Origin: Candidatus Gygaella obscura
GTDB lineage: Bacteria; Omnitrophota; Gorgyraeia; Gygaellales; Gygaellaceae
Length of the DNA: 36,278 bases
Reading direction: 5' to 3'
Assembly (NCBI GenBank): GCA_030765485.1
Contig: JAVCCR010000018.1
Location: forward strand, 1-36,278
Shown: piece by piece, positions 10,941-27,689 of the stretch
Layout of the letters: each line of letters begins with the position of its first letter
Numbering within the stretch: the first letter of the stretch is position 1
Position numbers and translations under genes: made by a program
The notes under the pieces: model-generated
The model's database searches: none
Told to the model about the DNA's origin: nothing
The model's input: only the letters and a program-made list of their open reading frames with translations

Positions 10941-11285
10941 ATGCAAGAAAAACGATTTGCCCGCAGATTTAACACAAACGATACTCTTCAGTGTCTGGTG
11001 GCTGATAAAAAAGCAACAATATCAGATATCAGCCTTACCGGTACGAGGCTTAAGCTAGAAGGAAGCTATGATTTGGATAAGGAGCTTGAGCTGATGTTCA
11101 GGTTTGTGCCTGGTGCGCAGATAATCGTAATGGCAAAGCCTGTCTGGAACAGACAGGATGGCGAAAAAGTCAAAATCGGGGTAAATTTCACTAAGTTCTC
11201 TGATTCTGATAAGCAGAAGTTGTATCAGTTTATGTTTCAAAGGTTTAAGGATGAGTTCAAAAGTGCTTGGTGGGCAGATACTTAA
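10941..11285 (+). CDS. PilZ domain protein, 114 aa
   Basis: This is a single PilZ domain, the c-di-GMP receptor fold. The N-terminal RxxxR is R5-R9, and the D/NxSxxG motif is intact (D29, S31, G34). The rest follows the usual PilZ barrel, ending in a helix with several aromatic residues. Known single-domain PilZ proteins bind cyclic di-GMP and act on partner proteins, typically in motility, adhesion or exopolysaccharide control. A strong AAAGGAG ribosome binding site sits at 10928-10934. It precedes a second PilZ gene that has its own promoter. Confidence 0.9.
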   Translation: MQEKRFARRFNTNDTLQCLVADKKATISDISLTGTRLKLEGSYDLDKELELMFRFVPGAQIIVMAKPVWNRQDGEKVKIGVNFTKFSDSDKQKLYQFMFQRFKDEFKSAWWADT

Positions 11286-11341: not shown

Positions 11342-11692
11342 ATGTCCGTATTCTCCACAGAGGAGCGCCGTGAGTTTGAACGTATTGACGTAAGTTTTCC
11401 AGTGGAAATCGAACCCAAAAAAGGCGCAAAGCGTATCAAGGCAGAAGCCAGGAATATCTGTGGTGCTGGGATGGCTGTGGTTTTAAAGAAAAAAATACCT
11501 CTTAAGGATGATGTAAGATTGATTTTACAGATTCCAGACAACCGTCAACCTTATAGCATTTATGGTAAGGTAGCCTGGGTTCAGGATGCGCCAGAAGGTC
11601 AAAATGTCCTGGGAGTAGGTTTTCATTCCGTGGATCTGTTTAGGCTTTGGCGAATTTTCAGATTGCCGGAAGTCCGAAAACCTATGTTTTAA
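11342..11692 (+). CDS. PilZ domain protein with variant NxCxxG motif, 116 aa
   Basis: This is a single PilZ domain. RxxxR is present at R10-R14, but the second motif reads N38-x-C40-x-x-G43, with Cys where Ser is usual. The remaining barrel (GKVAW, the GVGFHSVD phrase) is typical of the family. It should still bind c-di-GMP, because the arginines and the N/D and G positions are kept, but the Cys could alter affinity or make the site redox-sensitive (inference). It has its own promoter and a perfect Shine-Dalgarno. It follows another PilZ gene and precedes the glycan operon, 122 bases downstream. Confidence 0.9.
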   Translation: MSVFSTEERREFERIDVSFPVEIEPKKGAKRIKAEARNICGAGMAVVLKKKIPLKDDVRLILQIPDNRQPYSIYGKVAWVQDAPEGQNVLGVGFHSVDLFRLWRIFRLPEVRKPMF

Positions 11693-11719
11693 ATTCCAAA
11701 TAATTAAATAATAAAACAC

Positions 11720-11748
11720 TTGACCATAGGCTTTGTCTATGGTAAATT
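11720..11748 (+). promoter_or_regulatory. promoter of the glycan operon with a dyad in the spacer
   Basis: The -35 is TTGACC (11720-11725) and the -10 is TAAATT (11743-11748), 17 bases apart. An inverted repeat ACCATAG-N7-CTATGGT (11723-11743) fills the spacer and overlaps both elements. A repressor bound there would block polymerase. The same dyad followed by AAATTTTT could instead be a weak terminator of the PilZ gene. Confidence 0.5.
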
Positions 11749-11788
11749 TTTACTACTTTTATAGTAAAGGTTTTAAAAAGTTTTTAAA
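11749..11788 (+). promoter_or_regulatory. two further inverted repeats in the leader of the glycan operon
   Basis: TTTACTA-N6-TAGTAAA occupies 11749-11768, and a perfect 17-base palindrome TTTAAAAAGTTTTTAAA occupies 11772-11788. Both lie between the -10 and the GGGAG ribosome binding site (11804-11808). Candidate binders are the LacI-type and PilZ-ROK regulators encoded downstream. AT-rich palindromes also arise by chance. Confidence 0.4.
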
Positions 11789-11814
11789 TATTATATATAA
11801 CACGGGAGAGCTTA

Positions 11815-13125
11815 ATGGGTTTTAATAAAAGAGGGGTAGGTTTTTGTTGTTTAGTGCTTTTATTGGCTTTTGTTTTTATCGGCAACTGGGGATGTGTTTC
11901 TAATCAGATTACTGATTCAGATTCATTAATAATATGGCACTGGATGACAGACAGAGAAGAAGCATTTAATACTTTAGCAATAAAGTATGAGGAACTTACC
12001 GGTATAAAAATCCAATTTGATCTTTTTACTCCTTCTGATGTGTATTCACAAAAAATCATTGCTTCCGCACAAGGCAAGACCTTACCAGATATTTTCGGAA
12101 TTCTAGGCAAAAAAAGAGACGCTGCTGCCTTCGTAAAAGCAGATTATGTTCTGGATCTAACCAGCTATATGAATGAGGACAATGATAAATGGCGTAGTAT
12201 GATTTTTGATAAGGCATTAAGCCTCGGAGAGTTTAAAGAAGGCAATGTTTTTAAAGCTGCAGCAGGCGTGTATGCAGTTCCCATTGACCTAATGAATGTA
12301 CAGATGGTTTATAATAAAAACTTGTTTAAAAAAGCAGGTCTTAATCCTAATAGGCCTCCTCAAAGTTGGAATCAGTTTATTGAATATTTAAAGACGTTAC
12401 GCGCAAACGATATCGGAGGATTTGCCAGCGGTTGGGCAGAGACATGGCTAATTGACAGTTTTGCCTTAAACTATGCATTTAACATTATGGGTGAAGATAA
12501 AGTTATGGCTACGATTAAGGGAGCCGCATCTTATAATGACTCGGATTGGATAAAGGTGTTTAAACTTTTTGAAGAGATTCGTGATGTTGATGGGTTAGTC
12601 TCAGGTGTGGTAACAATGGATAATAAATATGCCGAACAGCTTTTCTCCAATGAAAGGGCTGCTTTTGCCTATAACGGCAGCTGGTGTATTAATGTTTATA
12701 AGGGTATGAATCCTGATTTGGAGTACGCAGCAATGATGCCTCCGCCATTTACAAGAAAAAACCCTATGGTTATCTGGGGTTCAGCTGGAGCTTCTTTTTA
12801 TATAAATAAAAAATCACCCAAAGCAGAAAAAGCAGTTAAGTTTTTAAAGTGGCTTACAGAAGAGGATCAGCAGGTATTTTTGATTGAGAAAACAGTAAAT
12901 CTGCCTTCAAATAAAAAATGTTTAACCATGATACCTAAAGCCTTATCGCAGTTTGCCGATGACTTAAACAATATCACCCATCCTAATATCTGGCCGTATG
13001 AAGAGTCTCCTAAGGTAACCGAGGCATTTGATAAAGGGATACAGTCTATTATTATTGGTGAAAAAACCGCAGAACAGGTGGCTGCGGAAGTTGATAAGGT
13101 AAAACAAAAGGTTTTAGCAAAATAG
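11815..13125 (+). CDS. sugar ABC transporter substrate-binding lipoprotein, 436 aa
   Basis: This is an extracellular solute-binding protein of the MalE/UgpB type (family 1), which captures an oligosaccharide and delivers it to the MalF/MalG-like pair encoded next. The N-terminus has basic residues, a hydrophobic core and an N-W-G-C end, so the mature lipoprotein would start at C27, although N at -3 is unusual. The length and landmark phrases (ITVWHW-like start, GKTLPDIF, an internal NGSWCINVY, and a WGSAGASFYI stretch before a final helix with A-VKFLKWLT) are typical. GGGAG at 11804-11808 is the ribosome binding site. It is the first gene of the operon, and the stop is 3 bases before the permease start. 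The substrate is likely a glucan- or mannan-derived oligosaccharide, judged from context only. Confidence 0.92.
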   Translation: MGFNKRGVGFCCLVLLLAFVFIGNWGCVSNQITDSDSLIIWHWMTDREEAFNTLAIKYEELTGIKIQFDLFTPSDVYSQKIIASAQGKTLPDIFGILGKKRDAAAFVKADYVLDLTSYMNEDNDKWRSMIFDKALSLGEFKEGNVFKAAAGVYAVPIDLMNVQMVYNKNLFKKAGLNPNRPPQSWNQFIEYLKTLRANDIGGFASGWAETWLIDSFALNYAFNIMGEDKVMATIKGAASYNDSDWIKVFKLFEEIRDVDGLVSGVVTMDNKYAEQLFSNERAAFAYNGSWCINVYKGMNPDLEYAAMMPPPFTRKNPMVIWGSAGASFYINKKSPKAEKAVKFLKWLTEEDQQVFLIEKTVNLPSNKKCLTMIPKALSQFADDLNNITHPNIWPYEESPKVTEAFDKGIQSIIIGEKTAEQVAAEVDKVKQKVLAK

Positions 13126-13128
13126 TTT

Positions 13129-14001
13129 ATGTATAATAAAAGGTTATCGAATTATTTTTTCATATTACCGGCTGTTTTAATATTCAGTATGTTTTATATC
13201 TACCCATTTTTTAAGACGCTTCAGTTAAGTCTTCATTCTTGGGATGGTATACAGCCTACGATGCAGTTTGTCGGGCTAGCTAATTTTAAAGAACTGTTTT
13301 TAGATGATAAGGCCTGGTGGTCATCAATGCTTAATGCCGGGTATATTACTTTTTGGGCATTGACATTCCAGAATGCCATTGCTTTAGTGCTTGCCTTGGC
13401 ATGCGATAAGGCTTTGCGTATCGGTTCAGTTTACAGGGTAATATTTTTTATACCACCGGTTCTTTCAGAGATTGTTGTAGGTCTTGTTTGGAAGTGGATC
13501 TATAACGGTGATTATGGGATACTTAATCATTGGTTGGTTAGTTTAGGTCTTGGGTCATTAGCTAGCGATTGGCTGGCTCAGCCTTCAACAGCTCTAACCG
13601 CTATTGCCATAGTTCATTCCTGGAAGGGTTTTGGCTGGGCGTTTATAATTCTTTTGGCGGGTTTGCAGACCATACCAGCTCAGCTTTATGAGGCTGCTTA
13701 TGTTGATGGCGCCAATGCCTGGAGAAGATTTATCAATATTACTATACCGATGATGGTGCCGGTTTTTATTATGGTAATGATTCTTACTGTTCTAGGTACA
13801 ATGCAAGGATTTGCGTTGATACTTGCAATGACCGGAGGTGGTCCGGCAGGCCATACGGAGGTTCCGGTTATCAGGATATTAAATTCTATGAAGAATAGTC
13901 AATTTGGTTATGCCTGTGCGCAGGCATTGATATTCGGGATGATTTTAGTGACGATTTCTTTTATTCAGATTAGGGTCTCCAAATTCTTAAAACAGGAATA
14001 A
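13129..14001 (+). CDS. sugar ABC transporter permease, MalF/UgpA type, 290 aa
   Basis: This inner-membrane permease has about six transmembrane segments and the binding-protein-dependent transport signature (EAA loop: EAAYVDGANAWRRF then IPMMVP), which contacts the ATPase. Length and topology match MalF-family subunits lacking the extra periplasmic loop. It pairs with the downstream permease to form the translocation pore for the sugar delivered by the upstream lipoprotein. Its stop codon overlaps the next start by one base (TAATG), giving translational coupling. Confidence 0.92.
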   Translation: MYNKRLSNYFFILPAVLIFSMFYIYPFFKTLQLSLHSWDGIQPTMQFVGLANFKELFLDDKAWWSSMLNAGYITFWALTFQNAIALVLALACDKALRIGSVYRVIFFIPPVLSEIVVGLVWKWIYNGDYGILNHWLVSLGLGSLASDWLAQPSTALTAIAIVHSWKGFGWAFIILLAGLQTIPAQLYEAAYVDGANAWRRFINITIPMMVPVFIMVMILTVLGTMQGFALILAMTGGGPAGHTEVPVIRILNSMKNSQFGYACAQALIFGMILVTISFIQIRVSKFLKQE

Positions 14002-14834
14002 TGCAGAAACTTAAAAGAATATTCAGCAATATCTCAATTCACTTTTTGCCCTTAATAGTTGCGGTTAGTTGTATTTTGCCACTTTTATGGATGCTTTCAT
14101 CAGCTTTGAAAACTCAGCAGACGGTTTTTAAAGACATGAGTTTAATACCAGAGGTTTCCCATTGGGAAAACTTTATCCTTGCCTGGGGTAAGGGCGGTTT
14201 TAGCATGTATTTCCTAAACAGCATCATGTATACCGTGCTTGTGGTTATTGGAATTGTATTGATTTCGTCTCTAGCGGCATTTGCTTTTTCCAGATTGGAC
14301 TTTCCTTTTAAGAATTTTATTTTTTATGTATTTTTAGCAGCAATGATGATTCCTCTTCCGGGTTCATTCGTTCCTTTATATGTTTTGCTTGTAAAGTTAG
14401 GTTTGGCCAATACCAGAGTAGGCTATTGTTTTTCCATGATTAATGTAGGGTTATCTTTAAGTATTTATCTACTGAAGACATTTTTTGATAAATTGCCAAG
14501 AGACTTAGAGGATGCAGCGCGTATTGATGGTTGTAGCAGAATCGGCATATGGTGGCATGTGGCATTTCCTCTGGCGCGCCCGGCAATCGGAGTGGTTACG
14601 ATTTATAATACTCTAAATGTATGGAATGAATATATTCTGGCATTGATTATCTTACAGTCTAAGAGTTTAATGCCTTTACAAAGAGGCCTGATGGTTTTTC
14701 AAGGTGCACATATAACTGAGTACCCGTTATTAATGGCTGGTATTACGATTACGATAATACCTATTTTAATAGTTTATCTCTTCTTACAGAAATTTATTAT
14801 TAAAGGTCTGACTGCTGGAGCGGTAGTAGGTTAA
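14001..14834 (+). CDS. sugar ABC transporter permease, MalG/UgpE type, 277 aa
   Basis: This is the second permease of the importer. It has six hydrophobic segments, and the EAA loop reads LEDAARIDGCSRIGIWW followed by a FPLARPA stretch. The C-terminal GLTAGAVVG is close to the usual MalG ending (GxTAGAVKG). It is coupled to the preceding permease by the TAATG overlap. No nucleotide-binding subunit follows, so the importer must use a shared MsmK/UgpC-like ATPase encoded elsewhere, as is known for many CUT1 importers. Confidence 0.92.
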   Translation: MQKLKRIFSNISIHFLPLIVAVSCILPLLWMLSSALKTQQTVFKDMSLIPEVSHWENFILAWGKGGFSMYFLNSIMYTVLVVIGIVLISSLAAFAFSRLDFPFKNFIFYVFLAAMMIPLPGSFVPLYVLLVKLGLANTRVGYCFSMINVGLSLSIYLLKTFFDKLPRDLEDAARIDGCSRIGIWWHVAFPLARPAIGVVTIYNTLNVWNEYILALIILQSKSLMPLQRGLMVFQGAHITEYPLLMAGITITIIPILIVYLFLQKFIIKGLTAGAVVG

Positions 14835-14837
14835 ATT

Positions 14838-17105
14838 ATGAAAAAGATTATTTTATTAACATTTTGTTTTTTATTTTCTTTTTGTTCCTTTGTTTTTACA
14901 CAGGAAGATTCTTTAGGGCTAGTTAAAAGAGCTTGGGAAGCACAAGGAAAAAAAGAATTTGATAAAGTTTTTCAGATTACCGATCGTTGTATTGCGCTTT
15001 ATAAAGATGAAGCAGATATCCAGCAGAAAAGCTTAAGTAAAATGCCGGAAGGCTCTGATGCCAAGGCGTATGAAGTTTTAAACAATGTTGCTACAAGTTA
15101 CTTTATCCAGGCAGAAGCCTTGATGCGTCAGGAAAGCTTAGAAGATGCAAAGGAGAAGTTTAAGTTTGTGGTGGATAATTATCCTTTTTCCCAGGCCTGG
15201 GATCCTAGAGGTTGGTATTGGTCTGTGTCTAAGGTGGCTCAGGAAAGTATTGATAAGATAAACAACAGACTGACGGATAAAGATGCAGAGATTTATGCCT
15301 TAAAAGAGGCAATACCTGTAATTAAGATTAAACTGCATGATTCTGGAACGGACGAGCCAATAGATTATAATAAGTACGGCAAGTTTAAGAATATCGGTAC
15401 AAAAGATTATACCTATGATATAGAAGACCAGGAAGGTTTATCCCTTGTATGCGGCGAAGGGGTATATCCAAATACTTCAAGCGTGCGGTGGAATCCTCTT
15501 TTTGTAGAATATAGACGCGCAAGAAAATTAGGCGGTTCGGTCTGGGATTATGTGCATTCAAAGAATCTACAGGCGGCATTTTTTAAATGGGCATCTTCTA
15601 CAGAACCTATGGGGGCAAAGTTATTTTATACCGCAAATATTTTAGAAAAAAGCGGTCTTATAAAGCAAGCCATAAAAACCTACTATTCTATTGTTGTTCA
15701 TTTTCCTTCAAGCTACGGATGGACATACTGGCATACGCCGTGGTATCTGGGGGAAGCATCGATTTATAAGATAAAGTATTTATTGCGTAATAACCCAGAA
15801 CTGAACTGGGAGTTAAAGGATGCCAAAATCCAGATTATAAACGGATTCGATAATAATGTGGCTAACGATATTGCGATTGTTAACCCGGGCGTATTGCAGA
15901 AACAAAAGAATAAATTTGATTTTAAAAAAGCAGTAAGGGAAGTAATTGCAAAGCTGAAGAAAAAAGTTATTAAAAAGCGCGGAGAAGGAAAGGTAAAATT
16001 AGTCCAGTATGATGATGGTAAATGGCAGATGCTGGTTAATGATAAGCCTTATATGATTAAGGCAATTACTTATGCTCCTACGCCAGTTGGTGAGAGCCCT
16101 GATGAGGGAACGATGACTAACTGGATGGAATATGATTCTAATGATAATGGCAGAATTGACGGGCCATTCGATAGCTACTTAGATACGGATAAAAATAAAA
16201 CTCCTATTGGGGATTTTAAGCTTATGAAGGAAATGGGTGTAAATACTATAAGGCTTTATCATCATCCGCTAAAGATTAACAAAAAATTGCTGCACACGCT
16301 TTATAATGATTACGGTATGCATGTTATCCTGGGGGATTTTTTAGGTAAATATGCCATAGGTTCAGGTGCCAGCTGGTCAGAAGGTACGGATTACTCTAAT
16401 CCTACCCATCAAGAGAATATGTTAAAGTCAATTTTAGGTATGGTTAAAGAATTTAAAGATGAACCGTTTATATTGTATTGGCTTTTAGGTAATGAAAATG
16501 TCTATGGTTTAGCCTGTAATGCCGATAAGGACCCGGATAGTTTTTTCAAGTTTGCTAATAAAGTGGCTTTAGAAATAAAGAAAATTGACAAAGAACATCC
16601 TGTGGGAATTTGTAGCGGCGATACATTATATTTAGATGTGTTTGCTAAAAACTGCCCGGATATAGATATATTTGGAACTAATTCCTATAGAGGTAATTTT
16701 GGTTTTGGCGGTCTTTGGGAACATGTAAAGGATTACGCTGATATCCCTGTAATTATAACCGAATACGGTTGTCCGGCATACGGTGAAGATTTGACTCAGG
16801 AAGAAGCCGAAGATTTCCAGGCAGATTATCATAAAGGCACCTGGGAGGATATTTTGATTAATTCTCAAGTCGATCCTGGTTTTGGCAATGCCATAGGTGG
16901 TGTGGTGTTTCAGTATCTGGATGAATGGTGGAAGGCGTATGAACCTTATACGCATGATAAAAAGGGTTTATTTACCGGCCCGTTTCCTGACGGTTATATG
17001 CATGAAGAGTGGCTTGGCATATGTGGACAGAAAAAAGGAGATGATTCACCGTTTTTAAGACATTTAAGAAAATCCTATTTTTATTATAAGAAGGCGTGGA
17101 GATAA
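14838..17105 (+). CDS. secreted TPR plus clan GH-A glycoside hydrolase, 755 aa
   Basis: A signal peptide (about residues 1-21) is followed by a TPR-like helical region (about 25-330) with a repeated hairpin phrase ending in a FP-S-x-x-W pattern. A TIM-barrel hydrolase occupies about 375-755. The acid/base is probably E553 in LLGNEN, and the nucleophile E642 in IITEYG, the usual GH-A spacing. An EF-hand-like loop (residues 433-444, DSNDNGRIDGPF) sits at the start of the barrel and may bind calcium. The architecture resembles GH2, GH5 or GH72 barrels, and I cannot choose among them. It would act in the periplasm or outside on a beta-linked glycan, feeding the importer encoded just upstream (4-base spacing). 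A paralogous barrel without TPRs is encoded at 18332-19627. Confidence 0.8.
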   Translation: MKKIILLTFCFLFSFCSFVFTQEDSLGLVKRAWEAQGKKEFDKVFQITDRCIALYKDEADIQQKSLSKMPEGSDAKAYEVLNNVATSYFIQAEALMRQESLEDAKEKFKFVVDNYPFSQAWDPRGWYWSVSKVAQESIDKINNRLTDKDAEIYALKEAIPVIKIKLHDSGTDEPIDYNKYGKFKNIGTKDYTYDIEDQEGLSLVCGEGVYPNTSSVRWNPLFVEYRRARKLGGSVWDYVHSKNLQAAFFKWASSTEPMGAKLFYTANILEKSGLIKQAIKTYYSIVVHFPSSYGWTYWHTPWYLGEASIYKIKYLLRNNPELNWELKDAKIQIINGFDNNVANDIAIVNPGVLQKQKNKFDFKKAVREVIAKLKKKVIKKRGEGKVKLVQYDDGKWQMLVNDKPYMIKAITYAPTPVGESPDEGTMTNWMEYDSNDNGRIDGPFDSYLDTDKNKTPIGDFKLMKEMGVNTIRLYHHPLKINKKLLHTLYNDYGMHVILGDFLGKYAIGSGASWSEGTDYSNPTHQENMLKSILGMVKEFKDEPFILYWLLGNENVYGLACNADKDPDSFFKFANKVALEIKKIDKEHPVGICSGDTLYLDVFAKNCPDIDIFGTNSYRGNFGFGGLWEHVKDYADIPVIITEYGCPAYGEDLTQEEAEDFQADYHKGTWEDILINSQVDPGFGNAIGGVVFQYLDEWWKAYEPYTHDKKGLFTGPFPDGYMHEEWLGICGQKKGDDSPFLRHLRKSYFYYKKAWR

Positions 17106-17179
17106 CAAAGGAGGGGTGAATATTGGAAATAAATTTAGTTGACACTTTATTAAAATACAAAGCAAAAAGGAGGAGCTGT

Positions 17180-18322
17180 ATGAAAAAAATAGCTTCATTT
17201 ACGGTTGTTGCTTTGTTAGGTTTGTTTTTGAGCATGCAGGCAATTGCTCAGGAAGTTAAACCTTTCAATGTCTATACAGACAAGAACTCAAGCGACAATC
17301 ACTTTGCACCTTCTGGTTGGATGGGAGATTTCGGTGATTTAAGGTTGGATGATCAGAACACCGATAATCCATATTCAGGAGGAACAGCTGTAAAGATTAC
17401 CTATAGTGGAAAGAGGTCACAGAATCAAGGTTGGGCAGGTATTTTTTGGCAGAACCCGCCGAATAACTGGGGTTCGAAAAAAGGTGGTTTTGATTTAACA
17501 GGATTAAATAAGCTTACCTTTATGGCCAAAGGTGAAAAAGGTGCAGAAGCCATTTCTAAGATTAAGGTTGGTGGTATAAAGGGACAGTATGCAGATACCG
17601 CTGAAGTAGAGATTGGTCCGATTGAGTTGACCAGCGATTGGCAGGAATATTCGCTTAATCTGGTTGATGCTGATCTTTCTTATATTAGTGGAGGATTTGC
17701 TTTTGTTATAAACGCAGATCTTAATCCTGAAGGTGCTGCGATTTATTTAGATGATATTAAGTTTGTCAATGATTCAAAGCTTAAGGCAGAAGTAAAAAAA
17801 GCTGAGAAGCTGCCGTTTTATGTATATTCAGATAGTTCATCAATCGGAAATCATTTTATTCCTTCCGGTTGGATGGGCGATCATGGCGATATCAAGCTTA
17901 AGACAAACCATGCTGAGGATCCTTATTTAGGCAAAACCTGTGTAAGGATTACTTATTCTGCAGAGGCCACTCAGGGTGCTCGCTGGGCAGGTATGTTTTG
18001 GCAGAATCCACCGAATAACTGGGGCGATATAGATGGTGGTTATGATTTGTCTAATGCCACAACGCTTACCTTCTGGGCAAGAGGTGAAAAAGGAGGAGAG
18101 CGTCTTGAAGAGTTTAAAGTTGGTGGTATAATGGGAAGGTATTCTGATAGTGATACTGCCATGATTGGACCAGTTGTTTTAAGCAATGAATGGAAACAAT
18201 ACTCAATCGATTTAAAAGGCAAAGACATGAGCTATATCATGGGAGGATTTGCTTGGGCTACCAATATGGATGTTAATCCAGAGGGAGCTATATTCTATAT
18301 TGATGAGATAGTTTTCGAATAA
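17180..18322 (+). CDS. secreted protein with two tandem carbohydrate-binding-like domains, 380 aa
   Basis: The start at 17180 is chosen because AAGGAGG (17167-17173) precedes it and it gives a clean signal peptide ending in QAIAQ. An in-frame TTG at 17123, itself preceded by AAAGGAGG (17107-17114), would add 19 residues. Two homologous beta-sandwich-like units follow, about residues 27-197 and 212-380. Each contains HF-x-PSGWMGD, a WAG-x-FWQNPPNNWG phrase and a closing GAxxYxDxIxF. The fold looks like a galactose-binding/CBM type domain (CBM4/9- or CIA30-like), but I cannot name the family. Conserved Trp and Asn residues suggest sugar contact. It sits between two glycosidases, so it is probably an accessory glycan binder. 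Confidence 0.75.
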   Translation: MKKIASFTVVALLGLFLSMQAIAQEVKPFNVYTDKNSSDNHFAPSGWMGDFGDLRLDDQNTDNPYSGGTAVKITYSGKRSQNQGWAGIFWQNPPNNWGSKKGGFDLTGLNKLTFMAKGEKGAEAISKIKVGGIKGQYADTAEVEIGPIELTSDWQEYSLNLVDADLSYISGGFAFVINADLNPEGAAIYLDDIKFVNDSKLKAEVKKAEKLPFYVYSDSSSIGNHFIPSGWMGDHGDIKLKTNHAEDPYLGKTCVRITYSAEATQGARWAGMFWQNPPNNWGDIDGGYDLSNATTLTFWARGEKGGERLEEFKVGGIMGRYSDSDTAMIGPVVLSNEWKQYSIDLKGKDMSYIMGGFAWATNMDVNPEGAIFYIDEIVFE

Positions 18323-18331
18323 AGTAATTTT

Positions 18332-19627
18332 ATGCAGATTAAATCAGTGTTAAGGGAGGCAAAAAGGGTCAGCTGCTTAACTTTTTGTCTCCTTTTTTCT
18401 TTTTCGGTCTTGGTTTTTGCCAAGGAAAAAATTCCTAAGCCTTCAAAGGTAGAAATCAGAAAATATAAGGATAGCCGCTACAGGCTTTTAGTCAACAGGC
18501 GCGACTATGCTATTAAGGGAGTCTGTTATAATCCTATTCCTATAGGCGAGGGGTATGATTATGATTTTTTTAAAGACGCAAGAAAGCCTTGGTTGGTTGA
18601 CGGCGAGTTAATGAAACAAGCAGGGATAAATACTATAAGGCTTTATCAGTCAAGCGAAGACACAGAAGCGGTAAAAGAATTAATTTCGGACTTATACAAT
18701 AAATTTGGAATTAGAACTATACTTGGCAATTGGCTTGGTTTTTGGAATTATCCCGGGCCATGTTACGGTGATGAGGGGTTTTGTGAAAGAGTAAAAGAAG
18801 AAGTTCTAGATATGGTGCGTGCATATAAAGATGAGCCAGGAATTTTGTTTTGGGTTTTAGGTAATGAAAATAATTACACCTTTGATGGCAGAATAAGGCC
18901 GTGGAGCACTGAAGATATTGATAAGATGGATTGTCCGATGAAGCAAAAGTTTGAACGGGCAAGACTCTATTATTCATTTGTAAATGAGCTGGCTAAAGAA
19001 ATTAAGCAAATTGATCCTAATCATCCGGTTTGTCTGGGGAATGGTGAGTTGATCGGGCTTGAAACGGCTAATGAAGTGTGTCCGGACATAGACATAGTGG
19101 GTGTGATTGTTTATAGAGGTAAAACTTTTGGCAATATGTTTAAGGGAGTAAAAAATTATTTCGATAGGCCGATTGTATTTATTGAATTCGGTGCAGATAG
19201 CTATGATGCCTATCTTGATAAAGAGGATCAGAATATACAGTCGTTTTTTCTGGAAGCCCAGTGGGTTGAGATTTATAAGAATATGTTTAAATCAAGAGAG
19301 GGAGAAGGAAATTGTCTGGGTGGATTTATGTTTGAATACAGCGATGAGTGGTGGAAATATAATGAATATAATGTTCAAGGCTGGTTAGAACATGATAGAA
19401 CTTCCAATTGGTCCAACGGAGCGTATTACTTTGACATAAAGGCAAAAAACAATAAGAATATGAATGAAGAGTGGTTTGGTATTGTTGGACTAAAAAAATG
19501 TGAAGTTGAAGGCAATCTTGATTTAAGGACTCCAAAGAAGAGCTATTTTGTTTTAAGGGAGTTTTGGAAAAATCCGGTAAAAAGAATAAGAGAAATAAAA
19601 AATGAAAAGAAAAATATGCGCAGGTAG
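18332..19627 (+). CDS. secreted clan GH-A glycoside hydrolase, 431 aa
   Basis: This is a paralogue of the barrel in the 755-residue protein, sharing YAIKG, NTIRLY, the LGNEN acid/base motif (E179), a PIVFIEFG nucleophile strand (E285), DEWWK and an EEWFGI-GLKK segment near the end. The N-terminus is a signal peptide after a longer basic n-region (hydrophobic core about 15-31). It lacks TPRs and the EF-hand-like loop. The two enzymes probably cut related linkages in one glycan, perhaps one endo and one exo or transglycosylating (inference). The gene starts 9 bases after the binding-domain gene and overlaps the next gene by 26 bases. There is no clear ribosome binding site, so it is likely coupled. 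Confidence 0.8.
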   Translation: MQIKSVLREAKRVSCLTFCLLFSFSVLVFAKEKIPKPSKVEIRKYKDSRYRLLVNRRDYAIKGVCYNPIPIGEGYDYDFFKDARKPWLVDGELMKQAGINTIRLYQSSEDTEAVKELISDLYNKFGIRTILGNWLGFWNYPGPCYGDEGFCERVKEEVLDMVRAYKDEPGILFWVLGNENNYTFDGRIRPWSTEDIDKMDCPMKQKFERARLYYSFVNELAKEIKQIDPNHPVCLGNGELIGLETANEVCPDIDIVGVIVYRGKTFGNMFKGVKNYFDRPIVFIEFGADSYDAYLDKEDQNIQSFFLEAQWVEIYKNMFKSREGEGNCLGGFMFEYSDEWWKYNEYNVQGWLEHDRTSNWSNGAYYFDIKAKNNKNMNEEWFGIVGLKKCEVEGNLDLRTPKKSYFVLREFWKNPVKRIREIKNEKKNMRR

Positions 19628-21188
19628 TTTATTAGTTTTAGGTATTTTTATAAGCTGTATTAGTTTAAGTTTTGCAGATAATTTAAAGAATTGTCCTGAA
19701 GACACTTTTTATATTGTCGAACAATCAAAAACAGAATACTTTTTTAAAAAAGACTATAAAGGATTCTTGGCTTATTTAAATAAGCATAAATCTTGTTTAG
19801 GGGAAGAGTTTATAAAGTACTACACTGCATCTGCCAGATTTGCGGAATTGAAACAGTATGAAGATTCTCAAGATTGGCAAAGGTATTTTGATTTAAAGGA
19901 AGATTATTTTACCGTAATCGAGAATAACTTAAGCGAAGTAATAAATGCAATTAGTTCATCTGTTAACGCTTTTCAAATTGAGGCTTTATATCTTGATTGG
20001 ATTTTAGAAAAACAAAAAACTGGTTTTAACGAGAACGAAAAGCTAGATGCTTTAATGGAATATATAAAAGATTACGATAATGATCCCAGTCAATTTAAAT
20101 TATTAAAGTCTGTTGCCGATAGATTATTGGATGAAGGTCTTGATAGGCAAAGCGGTATCATTTACGATATCTATGCAAAAAAATTGATTAAAAACAATCT
20201 TAATTCTGATTTATTGTTAAAGACCGCAGAAGATGCATTTAAGGATGGCCGTTTTAAGCTGGCTAGATCTTTATATACTGCATATTTAGAGGTTATTTAT
20301 TCTACTGCTTCAAAACAGGAGTATCTCGAACATATTATCAGGATCATTAATCTGTTTGTTGATATTGGCTGGCAGCCAGGTATTGATAGTGACTTTGCCG
20401 AAGAGCTTTTCCAGCAGCTGGAAGAAAATTTTTCAGAAGGTTTTGATGCAACAATATTGTTTCTTAGAGCTTACAATCTAGAAAGAATGTCTTTTTACCA
20501 GGAGGCAATTACACAATTTAGGCAGTTTATAACGCGTTTTCCCAATGATGAAAAAATCAATCAAGCTTTGTTTCATGCAGGAATGATAGAGCTGTATCTT
20601 CTGAATAAAAAAGAAGGCCTGGATTTATTAAAACAGATTGTCGATAAAAATAATAAAAGCGGGTATTTAAAGTCTGCACTTTATTATTCTGCGCTATATC
20701 TGCAGAAAGAAGATTTAACTGAACAAGCCAAAGCTTATTATCAGAAATTAAAAGATATTCTTGAGGCTGATACAATAATTGATGGAAAGTTACTTTCTTT
20801 GACCAATGATAGGCTTAATGAGATAAATAATACAAAGCCATTAGAGAATAATTTACGTTTCTTTATGGAGGCAGGTTTTGATTCAGTAAAGCTGTTGGGC
20901 AATGTTTCTATTACGCCTGTGCCGGCTAAGGCCTATGTGAATGATAATGTTGAGATGGCTAGTAGTTACTTTGTCGGCAATGTGGGGTGTTTTCAACCGG
21001 TTTTGGATTTTATATGGTCAGGCGATTTGGGAAGCGCCTCGGTTTTAAACAGTACACAACAGTTCAGCACAACTTATAGTACACAGGGGCCAAAGATAAT
21101 ACTTTTAAGTGTAAAATCAGCAATTGAATTGGTGGGTAAGCATATCGCTATTATTGAAATCTTTAAAAAAGGACAAGAAAATAATTGA
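19602..21188 (+). CDS. secreted TPR protein with C-terminal PKD/Ig-like domain, 528 aa
   Basis: The signal peptide ends near residue 25. Residues about 50-410 form TPR/SEL-like helical repeats, including an AITQFRQFITRFPND unit typical of YbgF/BamD-type TPRs. The last 100 residues are beta-rich and resemble a PKD or Ig-like sandwich (DFIWSGDLG, then a TYSTQGPKIILLSV strand). It would be periplasmic or cell-surface and probably scaffolds the glycan enzymes or the barrel protein encoded next; no enzymatic motif is visible. The first 26 bases overlap the preceding glycosidase in another frame, which signals coupling. Confidence 0.75.
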   Translation: MKRKICAGSLLVLGIFISCISLSFADNLKNCPEDTFYIVEQSKTEYFFKKDYKGFLAYLNKHKSCLGEEFIKYYTASARFAELKQYEDSQDWQRYFDLKEDYFTVIENNLSEVINAISSSVNAFQIEALYLDWILEKQKTGFNENEKLDALMEYIKDYDNDPSQFKLLKSVADRLLDEGLDRQSGIIYDIYAKKLIKNNLNSDLLLKTAEDAFKDGRFKLARSLYTAYLEVIYSTASKQEYLEHIIRIINLFVDIGWQPGIDSDFAEELFQQLEENFSEGFDATILFLRAYNLERMSFYQEAITQFRQFITRFPNDEKINQALFHAGMIELYLLNKKEGLDLLKQIVDKNNKSGYLKSALYYSALYLQKEDLTEQAKAYYQKLKDILEADTIIDGKLLSLTNDRLNEINNTKPLENNLRFFMEAGFDSVKLLGNVSITPVPAKAYVNDNVEMASSYFVGNVGCFQPVLDFIWSGDLGSASVLNSTQQFSTTYSTQGPKIILLSVKSAIELVGKHIAIIEIFKKGQENN

Positions 21189-21233: not shown

Positions 21234-23909
21234 ATGAAGAAAAAAGTATTTAGTGTTTTTATAATTGGTTGTTTTTTAATAATAAGTTATTCCCAAGTTT
21301 TTGCCCAGGCAATGACTGCGGAGTTCTTATGCGACATAGGTAAAACCTATTATATTAGAGGTCAATTCTCCGATTCGACAATAGAATTTAAAAAAGTTTT
21401 ACTTATTGATGAAAATAATAAGATTGCTAGAAAATACCTGGATATGATTCAGGAAAAGTCGGGCAAGGTTGTTGAACAAGTTTTAGTTTCCGATACCAGC
21501 AGAAGGCTTGCTATCGATAAGGCACTACAGTTAGTTGAAAATAAACCTATTGTCAATATCAATTATGTAGTCAAACAACCTGATACTCAAGCTAAATCAG
21601 AAGAAAAAGATTTATTAACCGTTTCCGGTGAGCTGCAGTTAGGTGTTGGAATAACCAGTGATGATGTTATCTGGAAATTTGCCAATGCAGATTATGTAGG
21701 AGTGCCGCAAGAGAAGAATTGGAGATATCTTTGGGGGGAAGACGGTGTTAATACATATGATAGGGCTATTTATGATAGTTTAAAATTAAACCTTGAATCA
21801 AACTTAACTGACAAGATAAGCCTTTATAATCAGATCGTAATTGATCCCTGGACATTTATAGGAACAAGTGATGCCTATGCAACTTCTACTACCGATGGAG
21901 ATTTTGCTGATATTGAATATAAATATTGGTCTGGAGATAGGCGTTTGTTAGATGAAGTTTATCGAACCAATAAGGGCAATATTATAACTATTGCCAATGT
22001 TAAGGTTATTGATGGTTTAACAAGTCCTTATACCCCAGTTGGTGTAACCGATTGGTCAACGAACTTTAACGAAATCCCTTCAGTTGATATAAATTATAAA
22101 TACCGTCCTTTTAGAAAACTCTGGCTTGATTATAAGGATGAGGATATCCTTAATGTGCGTATTTTTGCTTTGTCAGATCAGTATGAGGCTTTAACCAGCG
22201 ATGATCCATTAAAGCTTTCCAATAACCGTATCTGGTGGGAAGAAAGCCCTTGGCTTGATGAATATGAACCTTCAAGGATATTCTATCCAGATGATGGTAC
22301 TCTTCCTGTAAAGCCAGGCCGCTGGATAAGAAGATTATCTTTTGTGGCAAAAGATAGTGATTATAATAGATTAACATTCTTAAGAGGAGCTTCCATAAAA
22401 GCATTTGATGGTGATGTACAATTTGTTTCAGCATCTCCTTTAAGTCTATGGGATGAGTATGAAAGTTCTAATTCTTTGCACTCAGCATTAAGGGCTAAGT
22501 TTAGACCTAGAGAAGATCTCATGCTGGGGATCACTATGACTTCTAAAATGGGTTTTAATGCTGCAAGCCCGGAAGCAGAAAATCATGTATTTGCAACAGA
22601 TGTTGATTATAAACTAAGTTCTGAAACAAGTCTTTTTGCAGAGGCGGCAGGAAGCTATACTGATATTGAAGAAGCTACAGGTAAACAGAATATGTATGAT
22701 GGCTGGGCAGGCGCAGTGGGGGTAAAATACGGAGAGGTGGATTTAGGTTTTGTCGGTACTTCGGTTGATCGGGCTTTAAAGGCAGAGAATGAATCGTATA
22801 ATCCTAAACCAAAATTTGAATTAAGCGTAAAACAGATGGAAAAAGATTTTTATCCAGCATTGTCAAACTACCGTTATACAAGAAGAGATAGTTTTTATTC
22901 TCGTCACATAAGTTTTGCTCAGCTCTCTCCGGAAAATGATGAGTTTCGCTTAGGCGATGGTATTGATAGAGGCCGCAGGGTGATTTCATTGACCGCAAGA
23001 GAAACTATGTTTGAGAATAAATTAGGTTGGTTTTTACAGGATAGGTATGTTAGAAGCGACAGTAATAAATATATTGAAAATGACTCCAGATTTGAATCCA
23101 CAATAAGTTTTACAGATAAGCTGACTGCTAAATTTTTAGGTTGGCATATGGATTTACCAAAAACAAAATATCATCAGGATCCTTTTATCTATGAGAAAAC
23201 TTCATACGCATTAACGGATTATTTTATAAATAGCGAAGATTATATTGAAAACGAGGATATTTTAGAAGGGTTAGATGCTGATGTTGCTGGTTTCGGCGGT
23301 GGTCTAAGGTATGATTTTAATCCTAAATTTGCCGTTGAAGGTGTTTATGAAAACACCAATGACCCATGTGATTTTCCCAGGATTCTTTTGACGGATTCAT
23401 ATGTAGGTTCAAGTGAAACTCACGATGGCATACTCTATGATAATGTAGTTCCTTTTCTTTATGATCAGCGAGAATTCTTTGACCTTCCGCCTTATGACTA
23501 TTACAGTATTGTAAAAGGACGTGTGATTTTAAATCCATTTGAAAAACTTCAGGCTATATTGAGCTATACTAAAAACAGTAATAAGTTTACCGCCGGTATC
23601 GATGAGAACATTAATCATTTTGGCATGGAATTAAAATACAGCCCTAAGAAAAACTTGACCTTTTGGGCAAAATATATTTATTCCAAGCTCTATGATTTGT
23701 ATGCAGCCAACAAAGAAAGAAACCTTTATTATGAAGGGCATAATAATTTCTTTTTAGGCACGCAGTATCATATTGACGAAAACCAGTCTTTAGAATTAAT
23801 GTTTGGTGAGTTTGTTGATTATGATGCTGATTATACAGATTCGACATGGTCGCTTTCGGCTTTGGATACACAGCATATAGTTAGGATATTCTTTAGAAAG
23901 AAATTTTAG
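21234..23909 (+). CDS. outer-membrane beta-barrel protein with N-terminal TPR, 891 aa
   Basis: A signal peptide (about residues 1-25, ending FAQA) precedes a short TPR pair (about 30-80) and a linker. The remaining 780 residues alternate aromatic and polar residues in the manner of transmembrane beta-strands. The chain ends in ...IVRIFFRKKF, the C-terminal Phe signature used for barrel assembly by BamA. Many Trp/Tyr and Asp residues are consistent with a glycan-conducting or glycan-binding porin. It is the last gene of the glycan operon, so a role in outer-membrane passage of hydrolysis products is the natural guess. I do not recognise a named family. Confidence 0.75.
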   Translation: MKKKVFSVFIIGCFLIISYSQVFAQAMTAEFLCDIGKTYYIRGQFSDSTIEFKKVLLIDENNKIARKYLDMIQEKSGKVVEQVLVSDTSRRLAIDKALQLVENKPIVNINYVVKQPDTQAKSEEKDLLTVSGELQLGVGITSDDVIWKFANADYVGVPQEKNWRYLWGEDGVNTYDRAIYDSLKLNLESNLTDKISLYNQIVIDPWTFIGTSDAYATSTTDGDFADIEYKYWSGDRRLLDEVYRTNKGNIITIANVKVIDGLTSPYTPVGVTDWSTNFNEIPSVDINYKYRPFRKLWLDYKDEDILNVRIFALSDQYEALTSDDPLKLSNNRIWWEESPWLDEYEPSRIFYPDDGTLPVKPGRWIRRLSFVAKDSDYNRLTFLRGASIKAFDGDVQFVSASPLSLWDEYESSNSLHSALRAKFRPREDLMLGITMTSKMGFNAASPEAENHVFATDVDYKLSSETSLFAEAAGSYTDIEEATGKQNMYDGWAGAVGVKYGEVDLGFVGTSVDRALKAENESYNPKPKFELSVKQMEKDFYPALSNYRYTRRDSFYSRHISFAQLSPENDEFRLGDGIDRGRRVISLTARETMFENKLGWFLQDRYVRSDSNKYIENDSRFESTISFTDKLTAKFLGWHMDLPKTKYHQDPFIYEKTSYALTDYFINSEDYIENEDILEGLDADVAGFGGGLRYDFNPKFAVEGVYENTNDPCDFPRILLTDSYVGSSETHDGILYDNVVPFLYDQREFFDLPPYDYYSIVKGRVILNPFEKLQAILSYTKNSNKFTAGIDENINHFGMELKYSPKKNLTFWAKYIYSKLYDLYAANKERNLYYEGHNNFFLGTQYHIDENQSLELMFGEFVDYDADYTDSTWSLSALDTQHIVRIFFRKKF

Positions 23910-23948: not shown

Positions 23949-25292
23949 ATGGAAAGAAGAATTTCGTCAAGATTCGCAAAAGATCTTCCGGTATGTTTGG
24001 ATTTTGCTCCAGAGTTAAATCTTAATATAAAAAGTATTACCCGCGATATATCACATAAGGGGTTTTTTACCTTTCTTGATTTATCTGAAGTAGAGCTTCC
24101 TCCAAAAGTTAGGGTTAGCTTATCATTGTCAGATAATTGCCTATTCGAAAGTTCTGCTGAAATTGTCCGCATCATACAGCAATCCGGACGTATTACAGGT
24201 TTAGGTGTAAGGTTTGACTACCGTGATAGCAACCAGCAGGAATTAATATCTACATATATTCAGAATAATTTTTCCGCACAAAATATATCTTCAAGAGGTA
24301 AAACTTTAGAAAGCCGCTTAGGGCAGCGTTTATCTGACCGAGAAAAAATTAACTTCGAAATTTTAAATACATTTCGTATCAAAGGTCCTATTTCTAAGAC
24401 TCAGATAGCTCAGATTATAAATCTAAATATGGGTACGCTCACTAATTATATAAATAGTTTTATAAAAGATGATATTGTAAAGATTAAGGGGTTTGATGTT
24501 TCTACTGGAGGTAGACCACCGGAATTATTAGAGATTAATGCAAATTATGCTTTTATTATAGGAATTGAGATATCCGATAAATTTATAAAAGGTATAGCAA
24601 TTAATTTTGCAGGATTGGTGGTAGTTAAAAAGGAGATTTTTATTGACGAGTCTGTTAACAATGCCTTAGATGCATCATTGATAGAAAGCTTAATCCTTGA
24701 TCTGGCAAACAATCTGAATATTGATTATTCTAAGATCATTGCCTTAGGTCTTGGAGGTGTGGTTTCTTTTGACGATATAGCCCTGGTGAAGAAAACTCTG
24801 GAGGAAAGATTTAAGGTTCCGATTATATTTGAGAATAGTTTTAATGCATCGCTTTTTGCAGAGTGTTGGCTGAGCGGAGTCAAAGACAAAAAAAGAAATA
24901 TAATGTATTTAGCTGATTTTAATCACATCAGTATGCTTCAGGGAGAAAATCTGTTGCTTGATAATGGTAGAATAGGAACAAAAGACTCTCTGAGTAATGA
25001 GGTTATGAATAATGATAGTGTTAATGTTGTGGTCAAAGACATAATAGAGGAAAGTGAAAAAAATCTAGCTTGTATTGTAAATGTTTTAAGTCCAGATGTA
25101 ATCGTGATCGCATCAAGCTTTATAAAACTGCAAGAGAATATACTCGAAAAAGTGAAATCAATCATTAATAAATGGTGTTTTGATGATATAGCTAAAAATA
25201 TTGAGATTATTTCTTCCCAGCTTGGAAATGATTCAGTCTCCTTTGGTATGGCTTCTTTGGCTCTTCGCGATATGTTCATACAGATTCAATGA
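23949..25292 (+). CDS. PilZ-wHTH-ROK fusion transcription regulator, 447 aa
   Basis: Three parts are visible. An N-terminal PilZ domain (about 1-95) has intact c-di-GMP motifs RxxxR (R4-R8) and DxSxxG (D33, S35, G38). A winged helix typical of ROK/NagC/XylR repressors (about 115-185) includes S-K-T-Q-I-A and the STGGRPPELLEIN wing. A ROK sugar-kinase-like domain (about 190-447) follows. The ROK part looks catalytically dead: the usual ENDANAA site reads ENSFNAS, the GxDIG phosphate loop reads GIEIS, and the Cys-rich zinc motif is missing. It should therefore be a DNA-binding regulator with c-di-GMP as a likely ligand and perhaps a sugar. It follows the glycan operon by 39 bases, so control of that operon is likely. 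Confidence 0.85.
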   Translation: MERRISSRFAKDLPVCLDFAPELNLNIKSITRDISHKGFFTFLDLSEVELPPKVRVSLSLSDNCLFESSAEIVRIIQQSGRITGLGVRFDYRDSNQQELISTYIQNNFSAQNISSRGKTLESRLGQRLSDREKINFEILNTFRIKGPISKTQIAQIINLNMGTLTNYINSFIKDDIVKIKGFDVSTGGRPPELLEINANYAFIIGIEISDKFIKGIAINFAGLVVVKKEIFIDESVNNALDASLIESLILDLANNLNIDYSKIIALGLGGVVSFDDIALVKKTLEERFKVPIIFENSFNASLFAECWLSGVKDKKRNIMYLADFNHISMLQGENLLLDNGRIGTKDSLSNEVMNNDSVNVVVKDIIEESEKNLACIVNVLSPDVIVIASSFIKLQENILEKVKSIINKWCFDDIAKNIEIISSQLGNDSVSFGMASLALRDMFIQIQ

Positions 25293-25440: not shown

Positions 25441-26637
25441 ATGGATAAAAAGATAAAGCTTTTTCTTTTTGGACTTATTGGTCTATCTTTTATAAGCATA
25501 ATCTTCGCCTTTTTCTTATATATGAGTAAGCAAAAAGTAGTCCAGGATTATAATGTTTTAAATAGTAGTTATTCTGATTTAAAAGATGAAAGCGAAAAGC
25601 TTTATAGAGAAATAAAATCTGCCCAGATGAATTATAATCTTAAGCAGAAAGAAGTAGGGGTCATTACTCAAGAATTAAATGCGACAAAACAAGATAGGGA
25701 TCAGATTTTAGAAAAGTTCGAGATATTAAAGAAAGAACTAAATAATATCCGTAATAGGGTTTCAAGTCCCGTCATTCAAACGCAAGCGTCTGTTAAAATT
25801 GAACCAGTAAGAACGCAAGTCAAAGAAGAATCAAGAGATGATGATGGAGATTTAGTTGTAAAAAGCGATGAAAAATATTGGGCAGGAATTCTTAAACAAA
25901 AATCATCTTTAGCGGTTGAAGTAAAAAGGCTTCAGCAGAGAATTAATGAAATCAATATCAAGGTTTCCGAAATTGAAAACGAAAAATCTGATTTTGCATT
26001 GCAGCTTAGGAAATCAAAACAAGAAAACGATAACTTAATAAGGGAATTAGATTACAATAAAAAGCTTGCGGATAATATTTCATTGGAACTTTTAAGAGAA
26101 AAAAGAGACAAGCGAGAATTATTAGATCAATTTAAGACAATAAGAGAAGAAAACTTTGTTTTAAGTAATCAGCTTAAACAGACTCTATCAGCAAAATTAT
26201 CCCTTGAGAAAAAGATTGATACGATAAGGCTCAAGAAAGATAAGCTGGATGAAAAGATCAGTCAGGTGGATATTATATTACAACAAAGATTGGATGAACT
26301 GGGAGATATTAGAAAAGAGATAGAATCTACAAGTCTTGGTTCCAGCTCTATTGGTTCATCTATTGAGCTTCCTGCTATTATAGTAAAGCCCGATGGCGCA
26401 TATGGAATAGAAGATAGGGTTATTTCCGCAAGGGTAGTTTCTGTTGATAGGAAAAATAATTTTGCAATCGTAAATTTGGGCAAAGAACATGGAATCGATG
26501 AAGGTAAGATATTTAAAGTCTTGCGTAATAATACTCAAATAGGGGTATTACAGGTAATTCAGGTTAGAAAAAGCGTTTCCGCCTGCGATATAAAAGAAGA
26601 AAGCGTTTCTATTTCAGTTGGCGACAAAGTTCTTTAA
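25441..26637 (+). CDS. membrane-anchored coiled-coil protein with C-terminal beta domain, 398 aa
   Basis: One N-terminal transmembrane segment (about 7-28) anchors the protein with its bulk outside the cytoplasm. Residues about 30-300 are a long heptad-rich coiled coil (Lys/Glu/Leu-rich), interrupted near 110-140. The last 75 residues form a small beta domain with V-VSVDRKNNFAIVNLGKEHGIDEG and a final V-VGDKVL. This resembles the C-terminal domain seen in MreC-like and FlgT-like envelope proteins. A structural envelope role is likely, but the gene is not recognised. It has its own promoter and a GGAGG ribosome binding site. Confidence 0.7.
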   Translation: MDKKIKLFLFGLIGLSFISIIFAFFLYMSKQKVVQDYNVLNSSYSDLKDESEKLYREIKSAQMNYNLKQKEVGVITQELNATKQDRDQILEKFEILKKELNNIRNRVSSPVIQTQASVKIEPVRTQVKEESRDDDGDLVVKSDEKYWAGILKQKSSLAVEVKRLQQRINEINIKVSEIENEKSDFALQLRKSKQENDNLIRELDYNKKLADNISLELLREKRDKRELLDQFKTIREENFVLSNQLKQTLSAKLSLEKKIDTIRLKKDKLDEKISQVDIILQQRLDELGDIRKEIESTSLGSSSIGSSIELPAIIVKPDGAYGIEDRVISARVVSVDRKNNFAIVNLGKEHGIDEGKIFKVLRNNTQIGVLQVIQVRKSVSACDIKEESVSISVGDKVL

Positions 26638-26684: not shown

Positions 26685-27689
26685 ATGGTTTACATTCCAA
26701 AAAAAGTCAGCATTGAAGATGTTGCTCGCCTTGCCGGTGTATCTGAGGCAACAGTTTCCCGGGTGATAAATAAACTTGGTACTGTCAAAAAGATCAATCG
26801 CATAAAGGTAGAGGATGTTATTAAAAGGTTAAAGTTTGTTCCTAATGTCAGCGCTCAGCGTTTAGCCAAGGGAGTGAGTAATTCTATTGCTTTAGTAATT
26901 CCTCATTACGAAGGGATATTCTTTTCTTTCTTTGCAATTGAAATTTTAAGAGGAGTTGGTATAGCCTGTGAACAGCTCAAGATGGACTTATTGCTTCATA
27001 TTGCAAAAGGGGAAGATAGCTTTAATTTAAAAGGTCTAGGCGGAGTAATCTTTGCCGATATTCTTAATAACAGAAAACAGCTTGAAAAAGCTGTAGCAGA
27101 AGATGTAAACTGTGTTGTGATAAATAACCTTGTTGAGGATTTAAAGGTCAGTAGTATTTATATCGATAATAAAAAAGGAGCTCAGCTTGCCGTTGAGTAT
27201 CTTATTGGTTTAGGGCATAAGGAAATCGCTGTGGTAACTGGAGATCTTATGACCCAAGCTGCAGCAGAACGTCTTGAAGGATATAAAGATGCATTAGGGA
27301 AGAAAAAAATTCCAATTAGAGATGATTTTATCATAAAAGGAGATTATAGTCGTCGTTGCGCAAGGGATGCTGCAGAAAAATTACTTTCTTTGGATAAAAG
27401 ACCTACAGCTATATTTGCCTGTTCTGATGATATGGCTTTAGAGGTAATGCAGGTTGTTATGGAGCACAATTTGAAGGTACCTAAAGATGTTTCTATAATC
27501 GGTTTTGATGATAATCCGCAGTGTTTATATGCACCAATTGCGCTTACTACAGTACGCCAGCCATTGTTAGAGATGTCTAAAAGGGCGGTTTTGTTATTGA
27601 AGGATCTTATTTCATCAAAGAAGCAGGAAACCAGTAAAGAGTTATTGTCTACGCAGCTTGTAATCAGAGATTCTTGTCAGGCTGTTTGA
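26685..27689 (+). CDS. LacI-family transcriptional regulator, 334 aa
   Basis: The N-terminal HTH (V-S-I-E-D-V-A-R-L-A-G-V-S-E-A-T-V-S-R-V, about 8-27) and hinge helix are canonical LacI. Residues about 60-334 are a periplasmic-binding-protein-like effector domain, with landmark ...TAIFACSDDMALEVM and VSIIGFDDNP. Such proteins are dimers that bind palindromic operators and release them on sugar binding. The best local target is the glycan operon promoter at 11720-11788, since that operon encodes sugar uptake and ends less than 3 kb upstream. No Shine-Dalgarno is seen before the ATG. Confidence 0.9.
   Translation: MVYIPKKVSIEDVARLAGVSEATVSRVINKLGTVKKINRIKVEDVIKRLKFVPNVSAQRLAKGVSNSIALVIPHYEGIFFSFFAIEILRGVGIACEQLKMDLLLHIAKGEDSFNLKGLGGVIFADILNNRKQLEKAVAEDVNCVVINNLVEDLKVSSIYIDNKKGAQLAVEYLIGLGHKEIAVVTGDLMTQAAAERLEGYKDALGKKKIPIRDDFIIKGDYSRRCARDAAEKLLSLDKRPTAIFACSDDMALEVMQVVMEHNLKVPKDVSIIGFDDNPQCLYAPIALTTVRQPLLEMSKRAVLLLKDLISSKKQETSKELLSTQLVIRDSCQAV

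Follow-up and report, generated by a model that had tools for sequence, protein, structure and literature searches.

Fusion of a PilZ domain to a winged helix and a ROK domain

The window analysed here, positions 1 to 36,278 of contig JAVCCR010000018.1 of Candidatus Gygaella obscura (phylum Candidatus Omnitrophota), encodes in a single open reading frame (ORF) a protein that begins with a PilZ domain, a type known to bind cyclic di-GMP (c-di-GMP), and continues with a winged helix-turn-helix (HTH) and a degenerate ROK domain. Its parts are as follows.

23949..25292, + strand: PilZ-HTH-ROK regulator, 447 aa, single ORF, ATG start (ORF and Pfam; six further genomes)
23952..24260, + strand: PilZ domain, residues 2-104 (Pfam PF07238; PilZ-only model against c-di-GMP-bound PilZ structures)
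23958-23972, + strand: RxxxR, residues 4-8 (R4, R8), in the PilZ domain
24045-24062, + strand: DxSxxG, residues 33-38 (D33-I-S-H-K-G38), in the PilZ domain
24339..24533, + strand: winged helix-turn-helix, residues 131-195 (Pfam; full-model match to 5f7q)
24534..25289, + strand: degenerate ROK domain, residues 196-447, with Ser297 at the former active-site Asp (Pfam, alignments, fold match to Mlc and Lmo0178)

Each domain scores above its Pfam cut-off: PilZ (PF07238, residues 2-104) at 37.4 bits (cut-off 22.5), the winged helix (HTH_24, residues 132-178) at 22.5 bits (cut-off 21.9), and ROK (PF00480), in two stretches, at 43.3 bits (cut-off 22.9). Both PilZ motifs, RxxxR at R4-R8 and DxSxxG at D33-G38, are intact. 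In ROK proteins the active-site Asp in END serves in sugar binding, the zinc-binding motif reads GH...CxCGxxGCxE, and the ROK sugar kinases have a DxGGT phosphate loop together with the catalytic Asp. The window protein reads ENSFNAS where END-A is usual, with Ser297 in place of the Asp; its phosphate loop is GIEIS, so that neither feature of a ROK sugar kinase is present; the zinc motif of Mlc/NagC-type ROK repressors is absent; and in alignment its ROK body is shorter than that of unfused relatives. An earlier note on this DNA had described the three domains in one protein, the intact PilZ motifs and the lost catalytic Asp, and on all three it is borne out.

A full-length AlphaFold2 model was built from 32 sequences, and the PilZ part was also modelled alone. 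In the full-length model (mean predicted local distance difference test score, pLDDT, 80.6; predicted template modelling score, pTM, 0.66; weak stretches at residues 1-7, 109-115 and 337-364), residues 129-447 match Lmo0178, a ROK repressor solved with its operator (5f7q_E; Z 24.6, root mean square deviation (rmsd) 3.9, 311 aligned) and with Mlc (1z6r_A; Z 22.9, rmsd 4.6, 301 aligned). The PilZ-only model (pLDDT 84.6) has 27 Foldseek matches at E<=1e-3 in the PDB, and those listed are either PilZ proteins or cellulose synthases that contain PilZ. It superimposes on the PilZ/c-di-GMP complexes 4xrn_C (Z 13.9, rmsd 2.2, 103 aligned) and MrkH (5kgo_A; Z 12.7, rmsd 3.2, 111 aligned), with a top Z of 14.8 and unrelated rows below Z 7. 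A phmmer search with the PilZ part alone matched no PilZ chain, and only the fold comparison did so.

Distribution of the fusion

Genomes (G-numbers) and families (f-numbers) refer to a sample of 384 genomes from the phylum. The single-ORF architecture is present in seven or more of these genomes, which belong to three families (f1, f31 and f44). Fused relatives are present in a sister genome of the same genus as the window (G001; 77% identity), in four f31 genomes (G150, G179, G236 and G202) and in G177 of f44. An assembly or frame artefact is ruled out by the architecture that the seven genomes share. When a profile of the seven fused proteins was run against the 384 genomes, six genomes with the PilZ part were among the matches listed, and the remaining matches listed are relatives without it; G236 is missing among them, and seven is a lower bound. 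Scanning genome contigs with a single protein found no relative, and scanning them with an alignment gave 13 loci, all from Omnitrophota or the PVC group.

Conservation and descent

RxxxR is invariant in all 15 aligned PilZ domains, and RxxxR together with the Gly of the second motif is invariant in 7/7 fused proteins. The second motif is canonical in the window protein, in its sister and, in its N-form, in G177.

We aligned 104 ROK proteins encoded at the fetched loci and compared their ROK parts. Of the 97 unfused proteins 93 retain the active-site Asp, and of the seven fused ones none does (Fisher p 1.6e-8 for loss in fused proteins only; the rows are not independent, and the p value overstates independence because the unfused set contains many close relatives besides a few stand-alone kinases). 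The zinc motif is rare throughout, at 2/97 unfused proteins in its strict form, 3/97 in a lax form and 0/7 fused proteins, and DxGGT occurs in none of the 32 aligned family members. As judged from these alignments, it is the loss of the Asp alone, among the three ROK losses, that goes with the presence of PilZ. The phosphate loop and zinc motif, which the earlier note counted as lost, are indeed both absent, but that loss is family-wide and unfused ROKs have it likewise; nor is being kinase-dead a peculiarity of this protein, since unfused ROK regulators here are ordinarily in the same state.

Between the window and the sister genome, the ratio of nonsynonymous to synonymous substitution (dN/dS) is 0.08 for the PilZ part, 0.02 for the HTH and 0.14 for the ROK part, with dS at 1.3-2.2, near saturation. 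By these estimates purifying selection acts on each of the three parts within the genus of the window. Decay of the gene is rejected, dN/dS being 0.02-0.14 in every part. The ROK part is 0.70 identical to that of the sister genome, the lowest value among the measured parts.

These data bear on whether the ROK domain still senses a sugar. A dual-input regulator, with PilZ binding c-di-GMP, ROK still binding a sugar or phosphosugar, and the two signals integrated, would fit a ROK fold that has been preserved under selection (dN/dS 0.14; Z 24.6 against a ROK repressor) and the nearly full-length ROK body of the f31 proteins (467-516 aa). Such a regulator is nevertheless unlikely, given that the active-site Asp is gone from 7/7 fused proteins and that the window's ROK body is shortened relative to unfused relatives, with a low-confidence stretch at 337-364.

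For the descent of the fusion we used a tree of 36 chosen rows out of 102 (two of the 104 were dropped as short), with the fused protein of G177, a long branch, omitted. A single branch (85/89) has the fused proteins of f1 and f31 together on the same side. A topology grouping all fused proteins with the unfused operon ROKs is rejected (approximately unbiased test, p-AU 0.001), and one in which those of f1 take that position is not rejected (p-AU 0.066). On these comparisons the PilZ-ROK fusion may have arisen once or more than once.

The operon and its unfused counterparts

The earlier note had placed the regulator in a sugar context, and its gene does lie inside a sugar-transport and glycosidase operon.

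10941..11285, + strand: stand-alone PilZ protein 1, 114 aa (Pfam E 1.9e-11)
11342..11692, + strand: stand-alone PilZ protein 2, 116 aa, NxCxxG replacing [DN]xSxxG (Pfam E 3.3e-13; alignment)
11815..13125, + strand: sugar ABC solute-binding protein (Pfam SBP_bac_1 E 1.8e-33; nearest solved relatives bind oligosaccharides)
13129..14834, + strand: two ABC permeases (Pfam BPD_transp_1)
14838..17105, + strand: TIM-barrel glycosidase-like protein with a TPR-like part (Pfam; phmmer to GH158 structure E 1.7e-8)
17123..18322, + strand: 399-aa protein, operon marker (C-end choice-of-anchor J domain; homologue at E<=1e-30 in 231/384 phylum genomes)
18332..19627, + strand: GH2-like TIM-barrel protein (Pfam E 5.9e-5)
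19602..21188, + strand: TPR-like protein (Pfam, weak)
21234..23909, + strand: 891-aa probable outer-membrane barrel, no Pfam match (G150 homologue has a weak MtrB_PioB match)
25441..26637, + strand: coiled-coil protein (adjoins the ROK gene in 17/17 unfused loci)
26685..27689, + strand: LacI-family regulator (Pfam LacI E 5.2e-15)

Of the 20 fetched loci, 17, drawn from ten other families, have an unfused ROK about 394-424 aa long where the window's operon has its fused gene; as to the other three, G257 is without such an operon, and the contigs of G222 and G179:C70 end before that place. The fused genes of G150 and G202 (f31) have the same operon place as the window's. G177 has both, an unfused ROK where the operon normally has one and the fused ROK next to a pair of PilZ genes at the locus head; the two ROK genes (locus L068, 2330-3571 and 15867-17174) perhaps represent a state before replacement. 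Loci of G150, G236, G179 and G177 include GH94 phosphorylase genes, the G236 copy being closest to cellobiose phosphorylases, and the window genome has only a weak GH94 match, which lies outside the locus. Because of the GH94 genes in related loci and the GH158 match of the glycosidase-like protein, the substrate of the operon is likely a beta-glucan.

The placement also speaks to the idea that the regulator is unrelated to this operon, or is a decaying gene kept by position only. That idea would accord with the ROK part having the lowest identity to the sister genome, but the fused gene takes the same operon place in f1 and f31 and dN/dS is low everywhere, and we regard it as very improbable.

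The 399-aa protein (17123-18322) is a conserved unknown, with about 60% identity across families and no solved relative at E 0.1. Ahead of the operon are an 1848-aa protein with a C-terminal methyltransferase (18-5564) and a 1384-aa HEAT-repeat protein (5748-9902). Beyond it is a ribonucleotide reductase (RNR) gene with an intein and a LAGLIDADG endonuclease domain (27883-31245), and the neighbour order LacI-RNR-MnmG(-QueG) recurs in other Omnitrophota families.

The promoter and the proposed operator

11720..11748, + strand: sigma-70-type promoter serving the transport operon, with TTGACC (11720), a 17-base spacer that has TGG at its end, and TAAATT (11743) (layout in 13/16 homologues)

This extended -10 promoter lies in the interval 11693-11814, and its layout is kept across families, in 13 of 16 homologous genes against a shuffled mean of 0.07; the pattern was written after the upstream sequences had been viewed (a first pattern matched 0/16), so that the count is a description and no independent test. 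The layout is absent upstream in G177, G137 and G136. An operator had been proposed at 11720-11788, a region that in fact carries the conserved promoter. The palindrome in the spacer matches at 8/9 positions in the window and has eroded to 6/9 in the sister genome, and for that reason it is no conserved operator. Shortly downstream of the -10 box, ahead of the solute-binding gene, four f31 genomes (loci L063, L066, L067 and L204) have the sequence TTATTTAACT, a candidate regulatory site seen by eye.

The c-di-GMP setting

The window genome has 11 GGDEF matches, 5 HD_5/HD-GYP matches and, in 1.38 Mb, 12 PilZ matches; each of the seven fused genomes has 4-11 GGDEF, 8-18 PilZ and 3-8 HD_5 matches, and EAL phosphodiesterases were found in none of the seven. 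RYGGEEF is present in three checked GGDEF proteins of the window genome. In 12/17 operon copies (f1, f31, f6, f7 and f53) the solute-binding gene has a PilZ ORF no more than 0.91 kb upstream of it; the profile used drew in part on the PilZ proteins of the window itself, so that the window copy counts by construction, and for some copies the upstream DNA is short (178 bases in G136). For a genome with 12 PilZ matches in 1.38 Mb, this proximity is far above chance, though the copies are related.

In the f6 loci L187, L190 and L191 the upstream PilZ ORF has two PilZ profile matches and is possibly a tandem PilZ protein. At G000:C21:13198-15592 (L002 and neighbours) a ROK glucokinase-like gene closely follows two GGDEF matches, as it does in the sister genome.

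A regulator possibly gated by c-di-GMP

We read the window protein as a ROK-repressor-type DNA-binding regulator for which c-di-GMP may have replaced or joined sugar as the signal at a beta-glucan-type uptake operon, and give this about an even chance. Gating by c-di-GMP is the simplest reading, and we infer every biochemical step of it. The PilZ domain would have been placed ahead of the winged helix while the ROK sugar site decayed; it is predicted to bind c-di-GMP via R4/R8 and D33-G38; the bound c-di-GMP would shift the position of the winged helices; and c-di-GMP, instead of or beside sugar, would set operator occupancy at the operon. In this way a signal of surface life may govern glucan uptake, a link to surface attachment that the earlier note had proposed. 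As to direction, our weakly held guess is that c-di-GMP lifts repression, as a sugar inducer would.

Several observations weigh against this reading. The RxxxR loop (residues 1-7) has pLDDT <50, and with this and the full-length pTM of 0.66 the domain arrangement is not predicted. No conserved operator was found beyond the promoter, 0/25 listed dyads being common to two of 23 upstream stretches. The actual switch could be the LacI regulator that the operon also encodes. Finally, the second PilZ motif of the four f31 fused proteins is NxAxxG or NxGxxG, which makes c-di-GMP binding less sure in that family.

This last point raises the alternative that PilZ serves for docking or dimerisation without binding c-di-GMP, perhaps by pairing with the operon's own stand-alone PilZ proteins. 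The second motif is also degenerate in the window's PilZ protein 2, and non-binding scaffold PilZ domains are known (PMC10333796). The canonical motifs in the window, sister and G177 proteins and the RxxxR of all 15 aligned PilZ domains argue the other way, and we think a mere docking role improbable.

A more specific form of the c-di-GMP-gated regulator is possible, and we advance it tentatively: the ROK regulator already resident in a glucan-uptake operon, on gaining PilZ and losing its sugar-site Asp, would have come under the control of c-di-GMP. Such an inducer swap would extend an older connection between the operon and c-di-GMP, provided by the PilZ genes that stand at the operon's head. 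If gating is correct, PilZ-ROK would be a catabolic repressor re-tooled from nutrient to second-messenger input, the unfused ROKs at the same place in sister families would serve as a natural control, and there would be a testable hypothesis for c-di-GMP in Omnitrophota, a pairing for which no paper was found in the full-text literature searched.

Comparison with known systems

Searches of full-text literature (few subscription papers, no preprints and no architecture query of domain databases) yielded no PilZ-ROK protein, in keeping with the earlier note, which knew of no such family. The PilZ fold and motifs are common to the window protein and to YcgR, BcsA and Alg44, PilZ receptors that are not known to act as transcription factors. 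PlzA of Borrelia is a PilZ protein reported to bind DNA/RNA (PMC10333796), but it is a tandem xPilZ-PilZ protein with neither winged helix nor ROK. Of the c-di-GMP transcription factors listed in a review, most use other receptor domains, and the PilZ one named there, MrkH, is without an HTH (PMC12564702). MrkH, a transcription activator of Klebsiella, resembles the window protein in joining PilZ to DNA binding; it differs in that the partner of PilZ in the window is a winged helix with ROK and not a non-HTH DNA-binding domain. The ROK repressors Mlc, NagC and Lmo0178 share with the window protein an N-terminal winged helix followed by ROK, and a location near sugar transport genes, whereas the window protein has PilZ in front and is without the active-site Asp and the zinc motif, the latter being absent from its unfused relatives as well.
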